From Marinobacter sp. AC-23 (GTDB lineage: Bacteria; Pseudomonadota; Gammaproteobacteria; Pseudomonadales; Oleiphilaceae): a stretch of DNA of 64,000 nucleotides. The translations under genes were made by a program, and so were the position numbers. The notes under the pieces were generated by a model that saw only the letters and a program-made list of their open reading frames with translations, made no database searches and was not told where the DNA came from. Of the stretch, positions 9,564 to 60,020 are shown one piece after another. The stretch covers positions 1-64,000 of the forward strand of contig NZ_MBPP01000001.1 of NCBI RefSeq assembly GCF_001858325.1, in the 5' to 3' direction. Each line of letters begins with the position of its first letter. The stretch's first letter is position 1.

Positions 9564-10597
9564 CGGGTATGAACGCTATGCCTGCCAGCTCCGAATTCAG
9601 CCTCACAAACCCGCTCGTGCGAGCGGGCTTATCTTCACTGTCGTGGAGCCGGGAGGAGGGCGAGCGCCTGCGCCTGGCGGTTATTACTGCGGTAGCCCTT
9701 GTGTTTTTTGTTCCACTTGCCCTGTTGATTCCTATGCTTGACGTTCCAGCCCCTGAGCGCCAAAAGGCAGAAGCATTGCCACCGCAGCTGGCCAAGCTGA
9801 TTGTGAAACCAAAGGTGATTGAAAAACCAAAAGTGATTGAAAAGCCCAAGCCCGTTGAAAAACCAATCCCGGAACCTGTTGAGGAAACGGCACCGCCTGC
9901 GCCAAAACCCACTCCCCAGGCTATTAAGCCAGAACCCGTGCCAGCCCCGGTGACGCCCGCGCCAAAGCCAGCTAGCCAGAGCGTTGAGCAAGCGCGGGAG
10001 AAAGCGTCTCGCTCGGGGCTTTTAGCGATGAAGGAGCGCTTGGCCTCCATGCGCCAGACCTCGCCCAAGGTTGCTCCTGCTATTCAGGCGAACACTGGTG
10101 ATAGATCTGACGCCGAAAGTGGCGTTAAAGCCCAGGCCAAAACCACCGGAGATGCGTTGCAGGGCAGTGGTGGTGTAAAGGATGTGCAGTCTACCAGCCA
10201 GGCGAATGTTGACGTTGCGGGGCACGAGGTGAGACAGGTAGACGCGCCGCAGGAGGCGGAGCCAGCTGTGGCGAGCTCAGCTACGTCGAACCAGAAACCC
10301 TCGGTGGGTGAGCGCGCCATGAGCAATATCCGACAGGTGTTTGATTCGAGTAAAACGGCGCTCTACTCACTCTACCAGCGAGAGCTACGAAAAGACCCAA
10401 CCCTGGCGGGTAAGGTATTGCTGGAGCTGGTTATTGAGCCAGATGGGTCTGTCTCAGCATGCAAAGTGGTCAGTTCCGAGCTTGAGAGCCCGGCACTGGA
10501 GCAGAAAATCGCTATGCGGGTTCGGCTTTTCAACTTTGGGGCTGCGAGCGTTGAAGCTAGAAAGGTAAGGTTCCCTATAGATTTCCTTCCCGGCTAA
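9560..10597 (+). CDS. TonB/AgmX-PglI-type energy transducer
   Basis: This 345-residue inner-membrane protein has a cytoplasmic N-terminus, one transmembrane helix near residues 33-56 (LRLAVITAVALVFFVPLALL) and a long Pro/Lys-rich spacer with KPKVIEKPKVIEKPK-type repeats. A C-terminal domain of about 85 residues contains LRKDPTLAGKVLLELVIEPDGSV. That C-terminal pattern (basic-P-x-L-x-G-x-V, then xPDGxV) is the one seen in TonB family and AgmX/PglI C-terminal domains. Such proteins span the periplasm and pass proton-motive force to outer-membrane partners when driven by ExbB/ExbD. No ExbB/ExbD gene lies here. It closes the TPR operon and converges on the MaoC gene. Confidence 0.75.
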   Translation: MTGMNAMPASSEFSLTNPLVRAGLSSLSWSREEGERLRLAVITAVALVFFVPLALLIPMLDVPAPERQKAEALPPQLAKLIVKPKVIEKPKVIEKPKPVEKPIPEPVEETAPPAPKPTPQAIKPEPVPAPVTPAPKPASQSVEQAREKASRSGLLAMKERLASMRQTSPKVAPAIQANTGDRSDAESGVKAQAKTTGDALQGSGGVKDVQSTSQANVDVAGHEVRQVDAPQEAEPAVASSATSNQKPSVGERAMSNIRQVFDSSKTALYSLYQRELRKDPTLAGKVLLELVIEPDGSVSACKVVSSELESPALEQKIAMRVRLFNFGAASVEARKVRFPIDFLPG

Positions 10598-51025: not shown

Positions 51026-54000
51026 ATGAAGGTACGCAAGCTTGCGGTTGCACTGGCGTTGGCGGGAGGGCTCGGTTCGGGCGTCGCTCAAGCCTCGGGC
51101 TGGGTGAAATTGAACTTCAGTCCTATCTGAATGAACCGATGGACGCCGAAATTGTTCTGCCACAAAGCCAGGGTGTTGATCCCGGCGACGTGTTTGTGAA
51201 CATAGCCCCAGAAAGGGCTTACCAGCGACTGGGCTTGGAGCGGAACCAATTTCTTGGAAAGCTTCGTTTCGACGTAACGACCCGCGCCAATGGCAGCCTG
51301 GTGGTGAATGTCTCCTCACGTGAACCTCTGAGAGAGCCGTACCTCAACTTTCTACTGGAACTCACCTGGCCAAGTGGTCGGTTGATGCGCGAATACGCTG
51401 TTCTTGTAGATCCACCGGTTTACGCCGAAGAATCTGGTGTTTCCGAATCGGTACGGGCGCCATCTAATGCGCAATCTCGCCCCGCACCTTCCGCTCGCAG
51501 CTCTGAGTCGGTTCGCCGCCAGGCACAGGTAGAACAGTCCAGCGGAAGTGGTTACAGGTCAGATACTTTCGGCCCTACAGGCCCCTCTGACACTCTTTGG
51601 ACCATTGCCTCCGCGGTTCGCCCAGATAACAGCCTCTCTATGCAGCAAGTCATGCTGGCACTGCAGGATCTGAATCCGGACGCATTTATCGGTAGCAACA
51701 TCAATCGGCTAAAGCGTGGCCAGGTTTTGCGTGTTCCCACCGCGAACCAGATCCGCCGCCGCAGTCCCGCTGAGGCAATCCAAATAGTTGCGCAGCAGAA
51801 TCAGGAATTCCAGAAGCCGAAACGCACTGTTGATGCCACACCAGCACAGCAGCCTGAGGGTGGCGGTGCAGGAGAGGTTGCAGCTAGCGGTGATGAGCTA
51901 AAGCTCCTGGTTGCAGATGACAAAGGTGGCCGGAGTGAAACCGAGGGTGGTTCGGCAGGTGGTGATAGCCAGCTTGCAGGCGGCGTAGATGCCGGTGCAG
52001 CCGTGGCCATGGAGGAGCTCGAAAGCGCCCGCCGCGAAAACGACGAACTCAATAGCCGGGTTGACGATCTGCAGGATCAGGTAAAGACGCTGCAGCGTTT
52101 AATCGAGCTCAAGAACAACCAGCTAGCAGAGGTTCAACAAGGCGCTGCTGTGAGTGATGCCGCAGCCCAAGATGCTCCGATGCTGACGCCGATGGTGCCG
52201 TGACGGACCAAGCTGAAACGGTTGCCGATGCCACGGAGCAGGGTGTTGAGGCAAGTCAGACGGAAGTTTCTGGCGTGGCGGCTACCGCGGATGACGCCGC
52301 CTCTGCCGACATAGGCGCCTCTGAGGCACCTTCAGAATCAGAGCAAGAAGCGTATCCAGCGAGACTGAAGTTGCCGAGGCGGAAGTTGCGTCTGACGCAC
52401 AACCGGTTGCTGATGATGCTGGTACTGATCAGGATGGTGACGTTGCACGCAGCGATGTAGCTTCGGTTGCAGGCGATCAAACAAAGCAGCCAGCGCAAGC
52501 CGAAGTTCCTGAGGCCAAGGCTCAGCCGAAGCCAGAGCCTGTCGTCGACAAAGGCTTTCCGGGTAACGTCATTGATGCGATTACCGGCAATACCATGTAT
52601 CAGATTGCGCTAGGTGGCGGCCTGATTCTTCTTCTGTTGCTTCTACTGCTGCTTGCGCGGCGCAGTGCAAACCGCGAAAAAGCATTTTATGAGCAACTGA
52701 ATAGCGATACTGATGGGCCAGACGATAGCTTTGACCTAAGCCTTGACGATGACGAGCCGGAGCAAAGTCAAGCCGGCGACGCGCTTGAAGAAGCTGGTGC
52801 CTATGTTGCTTATGGTCGTTACGATCAAGCTGGTGAGGTTTTGGAGACTGCTATTTCCCGTGAGCCCAGCCGCACAGACTTGCGCCTGAAGCTCCTTGGG
52901 GTCTATGCAGATAATCAGGACCGTCAGTCGTTTGAGAAGCAGTTTGGCGAAGTTGAGGCCCTAGACGACGATGAAGCGATTGCCCAGGCAAATGAGCTTC
53001 GTTCCCGGCTTGAAGAAGCTGAATCAATGCCTAGCATTGATGATCTCGAATCACAGCTTCGCTCCGGGTCGTTTGTCGATGAATCAGAGGCTTCCAATGA
53101 ATTTGAGGCTGACGAACCAGAGCAAAGAGACAGCGAGTTCAGTGAAATCGATTCTGCTTTTGCCAATTTCGATCTTGATGCCTCCGATGACGTAGAACGG
53201 TCTACTGACACTGACACCGATGAAGAGGAAGCGAAAGACGGGGATGATGGCCTGATCGAATACGATCTGTCAGGCTTGAACTACCGGAAGCTGAAGCTAA
53301 AGGTGAAGTGCCAGAAGATGTTGCCGAAGAGGAGAGTGATTTCTCTTCCTTGGAAATAGATCTGGATGAGCCAGAGGCTGATGAACCCCTTGAGGACTCA
53401 CTTGACGATTCGCTGAAGTTTGGTATGGACAACGAAAGCACGGGGATTGATTCTCTCGACGAGTCTTTCCTGGACGAGCTGGATGCTGAGCTGGATAAGG
53501 TTGCGGGTGAAGACGAGGAGCTTGGTGGTTCCGAAATGGAAGAGTCTACGCTTGACGATTTGGAGCTTGATGTATCCGATGAGGATCTCGCCCTTATGGA
53601 GGAGTTCTCGGATTCTGCAGATTCCGCCAATGCTGTTTTTGAAGGCGACGAGTTGTCTCTGGACGATGAGCTGGAACTTGAAGATAGCCTCCGTGAAGAC
53701 GACCTGAACGATGACGATCTCGAAGGTATAGAATCCCTTGGGGATTTAACTGAAGAGTCGGATGATGCCCTTGTAGATGAAGAGCTTCCGGTTGCCTCTG
53801 ATGAAGTTCGGGATGAAGCTCCGAAATCACCCGTTCCCAATCTCGATGAAGACGATCTGGGTGACGACGATGATTTCGATTTTCTCGCCGGAACTGACGA
53901 AGCCGCAACCAAGCTTGACTTGGCAAGGGCTTACATCGAGATGGGTGACAGTGACGGTGCCCGTGACATTCTTGAAGAGGTCGCTCTCGAAGGAGATGGC

Positions 54001-54045
54001 GAGCAGAAATCTGAAGCTCAGGATCTGCTTAAAAATCTGTCCTGA
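51026..54045 (+). CDS. fimV: Pilus assembly/polarity hub protein FimV (composite, four frameshifts)
   Basis: FimV is a peptidoglycan-linked inner-membrane hub needed for type IV pili and pole organisation. Four single-base losses break it near 51093, 52200, 52352 and 53278; restoring one C or G at each gives a continuous frame of about 1007 residues. The order is signal peptide (ending VAQA), a FimV N-terminal domain starting LGLGEIELQSYLNEPMDAEI, a LysM motif (SDTLWTIAS...LKRGQVLRVP), a coiled coil (ESARRENDELNSRVDDL), and one transmembrane helix (LGGGLILLLLLLLLLARR). A very acidic cytoplasmic part follows, ending in the conserved FimV C-terminal domain (KLDLARAYIEMGDSDGAR). With pilZ it points to type IV pili. 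Confidence 0.88.
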
Positions 54046-54151: not shown

Positions 54152-55063
54152 TTGTTTCTCTACCCTCAGGAACTCACAGCGGATAACGCCATCGGCGGTG
54201 GGCGAGTTGCTCTCGCTTTCGAATACGACGGTCGCAGCTTTCATGGCTGGCAGTTGCAGAAGTCCGGAGTTCGTTCGGTAGAGGCAGAGCTGGCGAAAGC
54301 CGTAGCGAAAGTTGCAAACCATCCAGTAGATCTGGTTTGTGCCGGTCGCACCGATGCTCGGGTGCACGCAAGTTACCAGGTCGCACACTTTGAGACGCCT
54401 TCCATTCGTAGCCTTCGTTCATGGGTTATGGGCATCAACACCGCATTGCCGTTTGACATTGCCGTACACTGGGCAGGAAACGGCAGTGATGATTTTCATG
54501 CCAGGTTTTCTGCAATTTACCGGCGTTATCGCTACGTTATCTATAATAGCCCTGTAAGGCCCGGCATACAGCGCGGGCAGGTAAGCTGGATCTTTCGCGA
54601 GCTGGACGCAGAGCGTATGCACGAAGCAGCTCAGGCGCTTGTTGGTGAGCATGACTTTTCGTCATTTCGCGCTGCTGGGTGCCAATCCCGAACACCGGTT
54701 CGTTTTCTTGAGCAGATAAACGTAACCCGAAAAGGCCACTTCGTCGTAATTGATGTGCAGGCTAACGCTTTTTTGCACCACATGGTTCGAAATATTGCCG
54801 GGGCCCTCATGGCTGTAGGCACTGGAAGTAAGTCGTTATCATGGATTCATGACATACTGCTAGCCAAAGATCGAACGCTAGCCGGAGTGACCGCGCCGCC
54901 CCATGGCTTGTATTTGGTCGATGTGGGGTATCCGGAAGGTTTTCCTTTGCCAGCAGCTGAATGTGGCCCGGCCTTTTTAAGACCCTGGTTCAACAAAGCC
55001 GAAAACAGTCCGGTGTATCCAACGCATATTCATCTGAAGCAAAAACCGGTACAAGCGCCATGA
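54152..55063 (+). CDS. truA: tRNA pseudouridine(38-40) synthase
   Basis: TruA modifies uridines 38-40 in tRNA anticodon stems. The protein has the family blocks [15 protein letters not shown] and [10 protein letters not shown], and the catalytic Asp in [11 protein letters not shown]. That last motif is normally GRTDAGVHA, so an Arg replaces a Gly next to the active site. The start is unclear: the TTG at 54152 is the only usable codon in frame, without a good ribosome-binding site. The 303 residues are somewhat longer than in E. coli. The stop overlaps trpF (ATGA at 55060-55063). Confidence 0.88.
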
Positions 55064-55677
55064 GTACACGCGTCAAAATCTGTGGCTTAACCCGTATTGG
55101 GGATGTTGGAGCTGCCGTTGATGCGGGGGCCGATGCCCTGGGGTTTGTGTTTTATGACCCCAGCCCCCGCGCCGTTACCATTGAACAGGCCAAGGTTCTT
55201 GCCCGGAACGTGCCTGCGTTTGTTTCTGTTGTTGGGCTGTTTGTGAATCCGTCTGAAGCGTTCGTCAGAGAGGTTCTTGATAGGGTTCCACTGGATTTGC
55301 TTCAGTTTCACGGCGATGAAACCGCAGAGTTCTGCAACCGGTTTGGCCGGCGCTGGATAAAGGCTGTGAGGGTTCGCGAAGCCGGGCAGATTGAACGGGC
55401 TATGCGCGAATACCGTCAAGCCTCTGGGCTTTTAATAGATGCTTGGGATCCTGACCGTTACGGAGGCACCGGACACTCATTCAACTGGGATTTGATTCCT
55501 TCAGAGCGCCCGCTGCCCCTTATATTGGCCGGTGGTTTGTCATCTGCTAATGTGGCCGACGCTGTTGAAAAGGTGAAGCCCTGGGCTGTTGATGTTAGCG
55601 GTGGTGTTGAAAAAGCTAAAGGCATCAAAGACATCGAAAAAATTTCTGACTTTGTTAAAGAGGCTCACCGTGCCTAA
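55060..55677 (+). CDS. trpF: Phosphoribosylanthranilate isomerase
   Basis: TrpF isomerises phosphoribosylanthranilate in tryptophan synthesis. The 205-residue barrel has the KICGLTR start, the [14 protein letters not shown] block, the LLQFHGDE strand and the [10 protein letters not shown] and VDVSGGVE phosphate-binding ends. The ATG at 55060 overlaps the truA stop, so translation is coupled. The frame extends upstream to 54961, but that part is inside truA. The last codons of trpF form the first unit of a 22-bp triplication leading into trpB. Confidence 0.93.
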
Positions 55678-55724
55678 TAGAGAGGCTCACCGTGTCTAAT
55701 AGAGAGGTTGACCGTGTCTGAAAA
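55659..55724 (+). repeat. 22-bp tandem triplication over trpF end and trpB start
   Basis: Three consecutive 22-bp units (55659-55680, 55681-55702, 55703-55724) share the pattern AGAGGCTCACCGTG(C/T)CTAATAG, and the third is diverged (AGAGGTTGACCGTGTCTGAAAA). Each contains an AGAGG ribosome-binding-like box and a GTG 6-7 bases later. The first unit is the trpF tail and the third is the real trpB start (GTG 55714). The GTGs of units 1 and 2 open nine-codon mini-frames (MPNREAHRV and MSNREVDRV) that stop at once, because 22 is not a multiple of three. Confidence 0.85.
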
Positions 55725-56934
55725 ACTGACTGAAGAAATGCTGGCTGCATTGCCAGATACGCGGGGGCATTTTGGCGCCTTTGGCGGACGATTCGTTTCC
55801 GAGACGTTGATGGATTCCCTGATGACTCTCGAAAAAGAATACCTTCGGCTAAAAAAGGATCCTGAGTTCCAGGCCACCTTCGACAAAGATCTTGCAGATT
55901 ATGTCGGCCGCCCCAGTCCGCTGTATTTTGCTGAGCGACTGACCCGGGAAACCGGCGGAGCCCAAATCTGGCTGAAGCGCGAAGATCTTAATCACACCGG
56001 TGCACACAAGATAAACAACACCATTGGCCAAGCCCTGTTGGCTAGCTTTTTAGGTAAGAAGCGGATCATCGCTGAAACCGGCGCCGGACAGCATGGTGTT
56101 GCTACCGCAACGGTGTGTGCGCGCTTGGGGCTTGAGTGCCACGTTTTTATGGGAGCTGAAGACGTACAGCGCCAATCCCTGAACGTTTATCGCATGAAGC
56201 TTCTTGGTGCCCAGGTGCACCCGGTAGAAAGCGGAAGCCGCACGCTTAAAGACGCCATGAACGACGCCATGCGTGACTGGGTCACTTATGTTGAAGAGAC
56301 CTTCTACATTATCGGCACGGTTGCGGGCCCGCATCCGTACCCGCTGCTGGTTCGCGATTTTCAGTCAGTCATCGGTCGTGAAACTCGCCGTCAGTCGTTG
56401 GAGAAAACCGGGAAGTTACCAGACGCCCTGGTTGCTTGTGTAGGCGGAGGATCCAACGCTATTGGTATGTTTTATCCGTTTCTGACCGACGAATCCGTAC
56501 AACTTTACGGTGTGGAAGCCGGTGGGCTTGGTATCGAAACGGGGCAGCATGCGGCGCCTTTGTGTGCTGGCCGCCCGGGGGTGCTTCATGGTAACCGCAC
56601 GTATTTGATGGAAGATGAAAACGGCCAGATTTCAAGCACTCACTCGGTCAGTGCAGGTCTGGATTATCCCGGTGTAGGGCCAGAGCACAGTTGGTTAAAA
56701 GATATCGGGCGGGCTAACTATGTGTCGGTAACCGACGATGAGGCGCTAAAAGCGTTTCGCATGCTCACCTTGGTTGAAGGTATCATGCCTGCACTGGAAA
56801 CTGCCCACGCGGTCGCTTACGCCGTAAAGCTTGCAGCCACGATGGATAAAGATCAGATGGTCGTCATCAACATATCTGGTCGCGGCGATAAAGACATTCA
56901 TACCGTTGCACAGTTAGATGGTATTGAAATCTGA
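55714..56934 (+). CDS. trpB: Tryptophan synthase beta chain
   Basis: TrpB joins indole and serine to make tryptophan with pyridoxal phosphate. The 406-residue protein has the Lys99 PLP site in [10 protein letters not shown], the phosphate loop [12 protein letters not shown] and the [16 protein letters not shown] region. The start is taken as GTG 55714, six bases after AGAGAGG; the TTG at 55708 touches that box. trpA follows after 19 bases. In P. aeruginosa trpBA is elsewhere under TrpI, but here it is placed between trpF and accD. Confidence 0.95.
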
Positions 56935-56953
56935 ATAACTGACAGGAGCAGGC

Positions 56954-57766
56954 ATGAGCCGAATTGAAGGGGTTCTTCAGACCCTCAAAGGACAAGGCCG
57001 AAAGGCACTTATTCCCTTTATTACCGCCGGTGATCCTCACCCAGATGAGACCGTGGGGCTAATGCACACTATGGTCGATGCCGGGGTTGATATCATCGAG
57101 CTGGGCGTGCCGTTCTCTGATCCCATGGCCGATGGCCCGGTGATTCAGTTGGCCTGTGAGAGGGCACTCAAGCACGGCACGTCGTTGCGCCGGGTTCTGG
57201 CGATGGTAAGCAAGTTCAGAGAAACCAATAACACAACACCAGTGGTTTTGATGGGCTATCTTAATCCTATTGAAGCCATGGGCTACGAAACCTTTGCAGA
57301 TGCTGCAGTAGCAGCGGGAGTCGATGGTGTTCTTACGGTGGATCTACCGCCGGAAGAGGCCGATGAGGTCGCGCCGCTGTTCTCCGAGAAAGGGCTGGAT
57401 CCCATTTTCTTGCTGGCGCCAACCACTACCGATGAGAGAATTCGTGCAATTGCCGATCACTCTTCGGGATATGTGTACTATGTTTCATTTAACGGCGTGA
57501 CCGGAGCTGCCAAAATAAACGTGGATGAAGTAGCCGCCAAAGTGGCGCATATCCATGAGTTGACGGCATTGCCCGTTGGCGTTGGCTTTGGTATTCGCGA
57601 TGCAGAAACAGCCGCAGCCGTGGGACGGGTATCCGATGGTGTAATTGTTGGCAGCGTGTTAGTCGATACAATAGCCAAAAATCAGGCAGATATCGAAGAG
57701 CTTAAACGGGCACTGACGGATCTGCTTAACCCGATGCGTGAAGCACTGGACAGCCTGGCTTCCTGA
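56954..57766 (+). CDS. trpA: Tryptophan synthase alpha chain
   Basis: TrpA splits indole-3-glycerol phosphate and passes indole to TrpB through a tunnel. The 270-residue barrel has the signature [17 protein letters not shown] with the catalytic Glu and Asp, [12 protein letters not shown], and the phosphate-binding [10 protein letters not shown] and [22 protein letters not shown] lies just before the ATG. It is separated from trpB by 19 bases and from accD by 45 bases. Confidence 0.95.
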
Positions 57767-57811: not shown

Positions 57812-58737
57812 ATGAGTAACTGGCTGGACAAGATAATGCCGGGCAAAATTCGCTCGGAATCCAATCGCAGAACAGGCGTACCTGAAGGGCTTTGGAAAAA
57901 GTGTCCTAAGTGTGGCGCCTTTCTCTACAAGCCGGAATTGGAGAGAAACCTGGATGTTTGCCCCAAATGCAATCATCACCTGAGGGTTGCTGCCCGTCGC
58001 CGTCTCGACATTTTTCTTGATGAAGAGGGGCGGGAAGAAATCGGCGAAAACCTGGAGCTTGGGACAGACTGAAGTTCAAGGACACCAAGCGCTACAAAGA
58101 TCGTCTTGCCCAGGCTCAGAAAACCACGGGGGAGAAAGATGCCCTTATTGCCAAGAAAGGCAAAACGTTGGGTGTTCCGCTGGTGGCCTGCTCCTTTGAG
58201 TTTGGGTTTATGGGTGGCTCCATGGGACAGGTTGTTGGAGAAAAGTTTGTGCAGGCGGCCAATGTTGCACTTGCAGAGCGTATTCCTCTGGTCTGTTTTT
58301 CCGCCAGTGGTGGCGCCAGGATGCAAGAAGCCATTCTCTCGCTTATGCAGATGTCCAAAACCGCGGCTGTGCTTGAGCGCATGAAGCAGGAAGGCATACC
58401 TTACATCTCGGTGATGACGGATCCGGTATTTGGCGGAGTATCTGCGAGTCTTGCAATGCTTGGGGATCTCAATATTGCCGAACCGAATGCCCTGATTGGC
58501 TTTGCGGGCCCGCGAGTAATTGAACAAACGGTTCGCGAAAAATTACCCGAAGGTTTCCAGCGTAGCGAGTTTTTGCTGGAGCACGGGGCAATCGACATGA
58601 TTCTTCATCGCCATCAGATGCGCGAACGTATTGCGCACGTGCTGGCCAAGTTCGCCGGGCAGGAACGGCCGGGAACAGACGAGCCTATTGAATTTGAGAT
58701 AACGGAAAAACCAGACGTTGATGTCCCAGCTGAGTAA
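57812..58737 (+). CDS. accD: Acetyl-CoA carboxylase carboxyltransferase beta subunit (composite, one frameshift)
   Basis: AccD with AccA transfers carboxyl from biotin to acetyl-CoA, the first step of fatty acid synthesis. The N-terminal zinc finger (CPKCGAF...CPKCNHH) is intact in the first frame and the carboxyltransferase core ([34 protein letters not shown]) in the second. The break lies at 58058-58069, where ENLELGTD would lead into [13 protein letters not shown]. One base is missing at least; a loss of four bases, as from GACCGAC to GAC, would give the expected TDRLKF. The enzyme is essential, so an error in this sequence is likelier than a real break. Confidence 0.88.
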
Positions 58738-60020
58738 ATCGAAATCACAGCCCCCAAACGCACCGGGGGCTGGTGCTACTCTTCAGCAGTGGTTGTCGTG
58801 GCTGGAATCTATCCACCCTACCGAAATTGATCTTGGGCTTGACCGGGTTCTTGTGGTGTTACGCCGCCTGTTCCGGAAAAAGCCAGCGGCACGGGTGATT
58901 ACAGTTGCCGGAACCAACGGCAAGGGCAGCACCGTTGCCACCCTCGAGGCTCTTTTGCAGGCCTCGGGTCGGCGTACCGGCGCCTATACCTCACCGCACC
59001 TTCAGAACTACAACGAACGCATCCGGATTGACGGCAAAGATGTTGACGACGCGACCCTGATATCGGCGTTCGAAAAGGTTGAGTCAGCTCGTGGCTCTGT
59101 CACGCTTACCTACTTTGAGTTTGGCACTCTTGCGGCGTTTGTTGCGCTTGGCGAGTCTGGTGTGCAGGACTGGATTCTTGAAGTGGGCCTTGGTGGCCGG
59201 CTAGATGCAGTAAACGTAATAGATGCGGATCTTGCGATTATCACCTCTGTGGATATTGATCACGTGGCGTTTCTAGGTGACAACCGTGAAGTCATTGGAT
59301 TTGAAAAGGCTGGTATTCTTCGGCCGGGTATACCGGCGATTGTCGCCGATATAGATCCGCCAAGCTCCGTTCTGCAACAGGCAGCTGCTCAGAAGGTGGC
59401 GCTGGTCAGAGCAGGGCAGGATTACACCATTCGTGAAACGCTAGCAGGCAATGGCGAAGCCTCTGCACTCTGCATTACCAGGGCCATGCCATCAGCTACC
59501 CACTGGGCCGTTGCCGGTCCAAAGTGCGGCCGCTGCGGTTATGGCAATGCGGACACTTGATCCGGATATGAGCATATCTGTTCTGGAAAATACTCTGGTT
59601 CAAGTAAGTGTACCGGGGCGGTTTGAGCGCCTCGAGCGGAACCCCGATCTGTATGTGGATGTGGGTCATAACCCCCATGCTGCCAATTGGCTATCCGCAC
59701 GACTTAAAGTGCTGAAAGTTGGTGGCCGGAAGATTCATGCCGTTTACGCAGCACTTATGGATAAGGATGTGGAAGGCGTGGCCCAGGCTATGGCTTCCGT
59801 TGTAGATTCCTGGCATTTGGCCGGGCTTGATGTGCCGCGAGGTTTGGGCGCAGAAACATTGAGAGCAAAACTTGCACCTTGTAATCTGGAGCAGGTGAGC
59901 GTTCATGATTCTGTAGCTAATGCTGTCGCGGCAGCGAAAGCCGGTGCTGCCTCTAATGACATTCTTATTGTATTTGGCTCATTTTTCACTGTTGCGGAAG
60001 CGCGCAGGCTGTTTTTTTAA
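58721..60020 (+). CDS. folC: Folylpolyglutamate/dihydrofolate synthase (composite, two frameshifts)
   Basis: FolC adds glutamate to dihydropteroate and folates. The P-loop [11 protein letters not shown] and the [14 protein letters not shown] motif are in the first frame, and the C-terminal [10 protein letters not shown] motif in the last. Between them a short piece is readable only in the third frame ([12 protein letters not shown]), so two one-base losses are needed, near 59449-59453 and in GGG at 59505-59507. After both corrections [16 protein letters not shown] joins normally and the protein has about 433 residues. The ATG at 58721 overlaps the end of accD, as in Pseudomonas. Confidence 0.87.

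Follow-up and report, generated by a model that had tools for sequence, protein, structure and literature searches.

Variable-number tandem repeats (VNTRs) can form by slipped-strand mispairing. Termination-reinitiation at overlapping gene pairs, as described in PMC6728339 and PMC10666635, involves, like the locus analyzed here, an overlap between stop and start and a Shine-Dalgarno core located inside the upstream gene; −8 nt is given in the latter as one of the three commonest spacings of such pairs. In E. coli gene pairs studied by Huber and colleagues, a 38-nt gap lowered reinitiation by 80-100% (PMC10666635), and a study cited in PMC12548453 found that coupling weakens as the overlap grows from 4 nt upwards and is gone at 25 nt. 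Reinitiation over long gaps has also been reported, in studies cited in these two papers (PMC10666635, PMC12548453), and published results on long-gap scanning by post-termination ribosomes conflict according to PMC10666635. The nearest natural analogue of the present locus is the mycobacterial interspersed repetitive unit (MIRU), which resembles it, in the description given in PMC12548453, as a short repeat located at a start codon, with a small ORF coupled to the gene and a presence that is likely cheap for expression. Bicistronic design leaders and uORFs are comparable in that they supply a start codon with ribosomes from a short ORF that terminates there (PMC12548453).

The window (the whole stretch of 64,000 nucleotides from Marinobacter sp. 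AC-23 analyzed in this work) carries trpF and trpB in the order truA-trpF-trpB-trpA, truA and trpA being the names that we assume for the flanking genes. Its trpF-trpB junction is made of three head-to-tail 22-bp units, each of them a copy of the trpF-stop/trpB-start junction, with the following features:

55656..55721, + strand: array of three 22-bp units (repeat finding; TRF score 101, best shuffle 62)
55656..55677, + strand: unit 1, with the trpF end, a GAGGC Shine-Dalgarno-like core and a GTG at 55670
55678..55699, + strand: unit 2, with a GAGGC core and a GTG at 55692
55700..55721, + strand: unit 3 (terminal), with a GAGGT core and a GTG at 55714 that is the trpB start
55060..55677, + strand: trpF, phosphoribosylanthranilate isomerase (NCBIfam NF002298, 277.7 bits for a cut-off of 215; translation)
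55714..56934, + strand: trpB, tryptophan synthase beta, GTG start (TIGR00263, 633.6 bits for a cut-off of 392.45)
55670..55699, + strand: minicistron 1, VPNREAHRV, nine codons and TAA (reading frame; predicted only)
55692..55721, + strand: minicistron 2, VSNREVDRV, nine codons and TGA (reading frame; predicted only)

The units are spaced by 22 and 22 nt, and copies 2 and 3 share 91% and 77% identity with copy 1. TRF finds 2.8 copies with 92% matches, and the score of the array is the highest of the 11 rows obtained for the window and exceeds the best one reached in 40 dinucleotide-preserving shuffles of it, so that the head-to-tail repetition typical of a VNTR is beyond chance. The trpF stop (TAA, 55675-55677) lies within unit 1. 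An 8-nt overlap joins the trpF stop to the start of minicistron 1, the stop of minicistron 1 to the start in unit 2, and the stop of minicistron 2 to the trpB start; relative to the latter, the two minicistrons end 14 nt before and 8 nt past, respectively. Since a period of 22 equals 1 modulo 3, the frame that a unit opens runs into a stop in the following unit, 8 nt beyond the GTG of the latter. The sequence-only reading had described three tandem copies before trpB, the first being the end of trpF and the third the true trpB start, with upstream GTGs opening nine-codon frames that stop in the next copy, and all of this holds; the span that it gave (55659-55724) has the right length, but is displaced by 3 bp. 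The three-copy count of the window genome rests on one assembly. It can be added that the window has a G at position −4 of the trpB start (55708-55716), where 108 of the 115 junctions of the genus have C and two have G. This G gives rise to a TTG in the trpB frame, two codons upstream of the GTG, and it is at this TTG that the ORF list begins trpB.

Some other observations concern the remainder of the window. The genes that we take to be accD (57812-58737) and folC (58718-60020) are each split over two frames, and each is a single open frame in G109 and G094; small differences in length from both relatives point to base-level errors in the window assembly. A gene that is presumably FimV-like (52595-54045) appears as two overlapping ORFs and forms one open frame in G109 (1006 codons) and G094 (1140 codons). 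Further short tandem repeats, mostly of 18-bp period and possibly coding, are found at 981-1053 and 9794-9871 (TRF scores 49-88).

A readable trpF-trpB junction was obtained for 115 of the 124 genomes of the genus; those left out are G021, G067, G096, G049 and G073 (trpB of ~65% identity, trpF absent from the retrieved region), G076 (53%), G111 (contig cut), G074 (weak match) and G064 (no match). The first five of them (loci L197-L201) have this ~65% trpB as their sole one, and no neighbouring trpF was found; several other members of the genus possess a second trpB, of ~51-54% identity. The junction is single-copy with overlapping genes in 109 genomes, the trpF stop lying past the trpB start by 20 nt in 103 of them, 8 nt in five and 11 nt in one. 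The usual condition is thus a conserved trpF/trpB overlap with the ribosome-binding core inside trpF, and the spacing proper to termination-reinitiation (an overlap or at most ~10 nt) is found both in these 109 junctions and in the 8-nt steps of the window. The six remaining genomes carry 22-bp arrays, with two units in G109, three in the window genome (G000) and G094, four in G084 and G053, and five in G052. Copy number thus ranges from one to five units over 115 junctions, at one locus and between species (one genome per species), as in VNTRs. The array of G109 lies in a single-contig assembly.

The array is also confined to this junction. Its motif, searched with at most three mismatches, occurs in six of the 124 genomes, which are the six array carriers, and solely between trpF and trpB. 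Within 372 kb around these loci, seven repeats reach a TRF score of at least 50 and five of them are the trpF-trpB array, the two-unit array of G109 scoring below 50. An exact gapped pattern of the array matched no site outside Marinobacter among 390 genomes of the order (16 of this genus) and 369 of the class; it matched G000 and G084 in the order set and G000 alone in the class set, and as it demands the 22-nt spacing, GTG and TAA, it would miss other junction repeats or decayed arrays such as that of G052. Likewise, no repeat of the trpF-trpB junction was found in the 43 non-Marinobacter loci among 80 TrpB loci, where two TRF repeats scored at least 50, both located elsewhere. Downstream of trpB, a Thalassolituus bin (L072:2898-2962) contains 4.6 tandem copies of a 14-bp unit, with a TRF score of 102.

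The terminal unit and the upstream ones differ strongly in their conservation. All 115 start-bearing units have an invariant GAGGT at −10 to −6 and an invariant GTG, whereas GTG is kept in nine and GAGGT in only one of the 15 upstream units. At position −6, C is found in 14 of these 15 units versus T in the 115 start-bearing ones. The predicted pairing with the 16S tail ranges from −7.6 to −9.0 kcal/mol for terminal units and from −1.0 to −7.1 for upstream ones, the terminal unit being the strongest except for a tie at −7.7 in unit 3 of G084; single-copy junctions pair at −6.8 to −9.8 kcal/mol, a range in which unit 2 of G094 falls. The 22-nt spacing of the cores is kept in all six arrays (TRF allows 1% of indels in that of G052). 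In the five-unit array of G052, all four upstream GTGs are gone and the remaining TTG frame ends 33 nt before trpB. This upstream decay is what would be expected if the upstream copies had been freed from selection, but selection for weak decoys would fit too, and the C at −6 could reflect repeated selection against decoys. Opening the terminal start would cost 6.1-11.1 kcal/mol in arrays versus a mean of 7.1 (4.1-10.8) in the 109 single-copy junctions; an effect of the array on trpB is therefore possible. Furthermore, the trpB start codon is GTG in all 115 junctions and never ATG, which suggests a constraint, imposed either by the trpF frame that overlaps it or by a need for weak initiation.

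Overall, the array is real, variable and older than previously supposed. We consider it somewhat probable that it is a VNTR derived from a duplicated trpF-trpB junction, mostly tolerated and able to relay ribosomes; the anatomy of the array, its variation in copy number between species, its distribution over clades, the invariance of the terminal unit and the decay of the upstream ones are observed, and the slippage mechanism, the single origin, the hand-over of ribosomes and the near-neutrality are parts of this explanation that we infer. The overlapping trpF-stop/trpB-start junction would have been duplicated in an ancestor of the part of the genus concerned, and the copy number would later have expanded and contracted by slippage-type events. 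Each 22-bp unit would provide a ribosome-binding core, a GTG and a stop in the incoming frame, so that a ribosome finishing trpF could step through the nine-codon frames to trpB by termination-reinitiation, and the last unit would still offer trpB an intact start of its own. Selection would hold this last unit and the upstream ones would drift, with weakened Shine-Dalgarno cores. The array would be tolerated because the last copy is intact and because a period of 1 modulo 3 makes each copy a stop-then-start module.

The distances involved show what such a relay might bring. The gaps between trpF and trpB in the six arrays are 14, 36, 36, 58, 58 and 80 nt. Given the cost of a 38-nt gap in E. 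coli, coupling over gaps of 14-80 nt should fall if the small frames were not used, and the minicistrons would keep it. The frames chain trpF to trpB through GTGs in G000, G109 and G094, and they do so in G084 and G053 if a TTG located at the trpF stop is used, the first link of these two arrays having a predicted pairing of −0.7 (TTG) or −1.7 to −2.7 (GTG 14 nt downstream). Successive frames overlap by 8 or 20 nt, like trpF and trpB in single-copy genomes, except at the TTG used in G084 and G053, where the overlap is 4 nt. On paper, a complete hand-over is thus possible in five of the six arrays, with a very weak first link in G084 and G053, and the relay is broken in G052, whose last frame stops short of trpB. 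However, if long-gap reinitiation operates, the minicistrons would be unnecessary. Moreover, the overlap of 20 nt is close to the 25 nt at which coupling was found to be absent, so that translation of trpB may depend only weakly on trpF in single-copy genomes too. As TrpF does not take part in the TrpA-TrpB complex, a loose trpF-trpB coupling may be tolerable.

The arrays may derive from one duplication or from several. The carriers sit in three separated lineages, and the least number of changes for array presence is three on each of the trpB, rpoB+secA+gyrB and trpF trees, the starred branches forcing two, three and one of them, respectively. G052 groups with the single-copy G121, G060 and G114, and G053, G084 and G094 form one clade, on both the trpB and rpoB+secA+gyrB trees; G000 and G109 are sisters on the trpB tree and unresolved with the single-copy G103 on the concatenation. 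The trpB tree includes 42 rows (only TrpB of at least 90.9% identity, plus the array carriers), and the concatenated one 20 of the 124 genomes (rpoB is missing in G103 and G006 and partial in G086; secA is partial in G000). Separate duplications of a slippage-prone junction, in two or three lineages, would account for these three changes, forced in full on the rpoB+secA+gyrB tree, and for the place of G052 among single-copy sisters. They would also agree with the self-similarity of the 109 single-copy junctions, in which the 22-nt lag ranks third of 29 lags (8.27 of 16), so that the junction itself may favour a 22-nt period. Although we give this alternative some weight, it is not likely, since the C at −6, seen in 14 upstream units and in none of the start-bearing ones, and the identity of units 1 of G000 and G094 (22/22 bases) would be hard to obtain three times. 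These same two features argue for a common origin and favour one old multi-unit array, later contracted and expanded, over a recent event, but with three changes on the trees, one origin would need several contractions or transfer. The proposal of a recent slip-strand duplication is thus supported as to the tandem duplication (109 of 115 junctions are single-copy and six have two to five copies) and not supported as to its recency, in view of the separated lineages and of the two shared features. Regarding transfer, G052 is slightly nearer to other carriers than to its own sisters, both in trpF 75-450 nt upstream (76.3-78.1% with the G094 group, 73.3-75.5% with its sisters) and over the initial 75 nt of trpB (94.7% with G000, 90.7% with G121). 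A short-tract exchange between carriers is possible, but these flank identities are ambiguous, and horizontal transfer was not retained as an explanation. A candidate contraction scar, G at −12 in five of 10 single-copy members of the clade versus 12 of 99 others (Fisher p 0.008), was also set aside because close sisters account for three of the five and this G is present elsewhere as well.

Other alternatives to a tolerated array concern its function or its reality. Copy number could be a selected dial, serial losses at reinitiation or added ribosome-loading sites setting TrpB relative to TrpF; the two to five copies differing between species, the constant spacing of the cores, the lower strength of the upstream cores relative to the last core (in all six arrays, with the one tie in G084) and the absence of the motif from any other site in 124 genomes would agree with such a role. 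We regard it as unlikely, however, since only nine of the 15 upstream units keep GTG and one keeps GAGGT, the relay of G052 is broken and 109 of 115 relatives manage without any array. In a stricter form, the array would be a natural tandem minicistron relay within an operon, whose copy number is an evolvable rheostat of TrpB versus TrpF and whose upstream cores are kept weak by selection in comparison with the terminal core, which seems to us quite unlikely. It is very improbable that the array serves for binding, as iteron-like sites in DNA or as an RNA element, instead of acting in translation: the units are regular and 22 bp corresponds to about two helical turns, but what is repeated is the junction conserved in single-copy genomes, and no Rfam match was found in 54900-57000. 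Moreover, no promoter-like site was found in 55060-56940 and the predicted RNA fold of the array region is not better than those of shuffled sequences (z 0.86). Finally, the interruption of accD, folC and apparently fimV by length differences with two relatives indicates that base-level errors probably exist in the window assembly, and an artefact of assembly or sequencing could be suspected; it is scarcely credible, as the three units differ from one another, the array occupies 66 bp within a 557-kb contig and five other genomes carry arrays of the same 22-bp period.

With one to five stop/start modules placed between trpF and trpB, these genomes form a natural series in which the single-copy state survives in close relatives. 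This series allows testing of reinitiation against the number of hand-overs, and of long-gap scanning by post-termination ribosomes, with G052 and its lost upstream GTGs as a natural negative control. In the literature, searched largely without subscription papers, no report of a trpF-trpB array or of a tandemly repeated start site was found.

The array shares with slipped-strand VNTRs its head-to-tail copies and a copy number that differs between relatives, but its unit is a start/stop junction. It would function as a chain of termination-reinitiation junctions, and differs from the known pairs of this type in that, in Marinobacter, the junction itself is repeated, with at least one minicistron between the genes and a coupling that is putative. 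Bicistronic design leaders and uORFs are engineered or single, whereas the trpF-trpB array is natural, located in an operon and tandem. According to PMC12548453, MIRUs appear to be mobile and insert at start codons with a −4 spacing. In contrast, the trpF-trpB unit is a local copy of one junction: it is not dispersed at several genomic sites, being found in six of 124 genomes and at this junction alone, and its small ORFs show overlaps of 8 or 20 nt instead of the −4 nt spacing. The array would work like a MIRU, but is not a member of this family.
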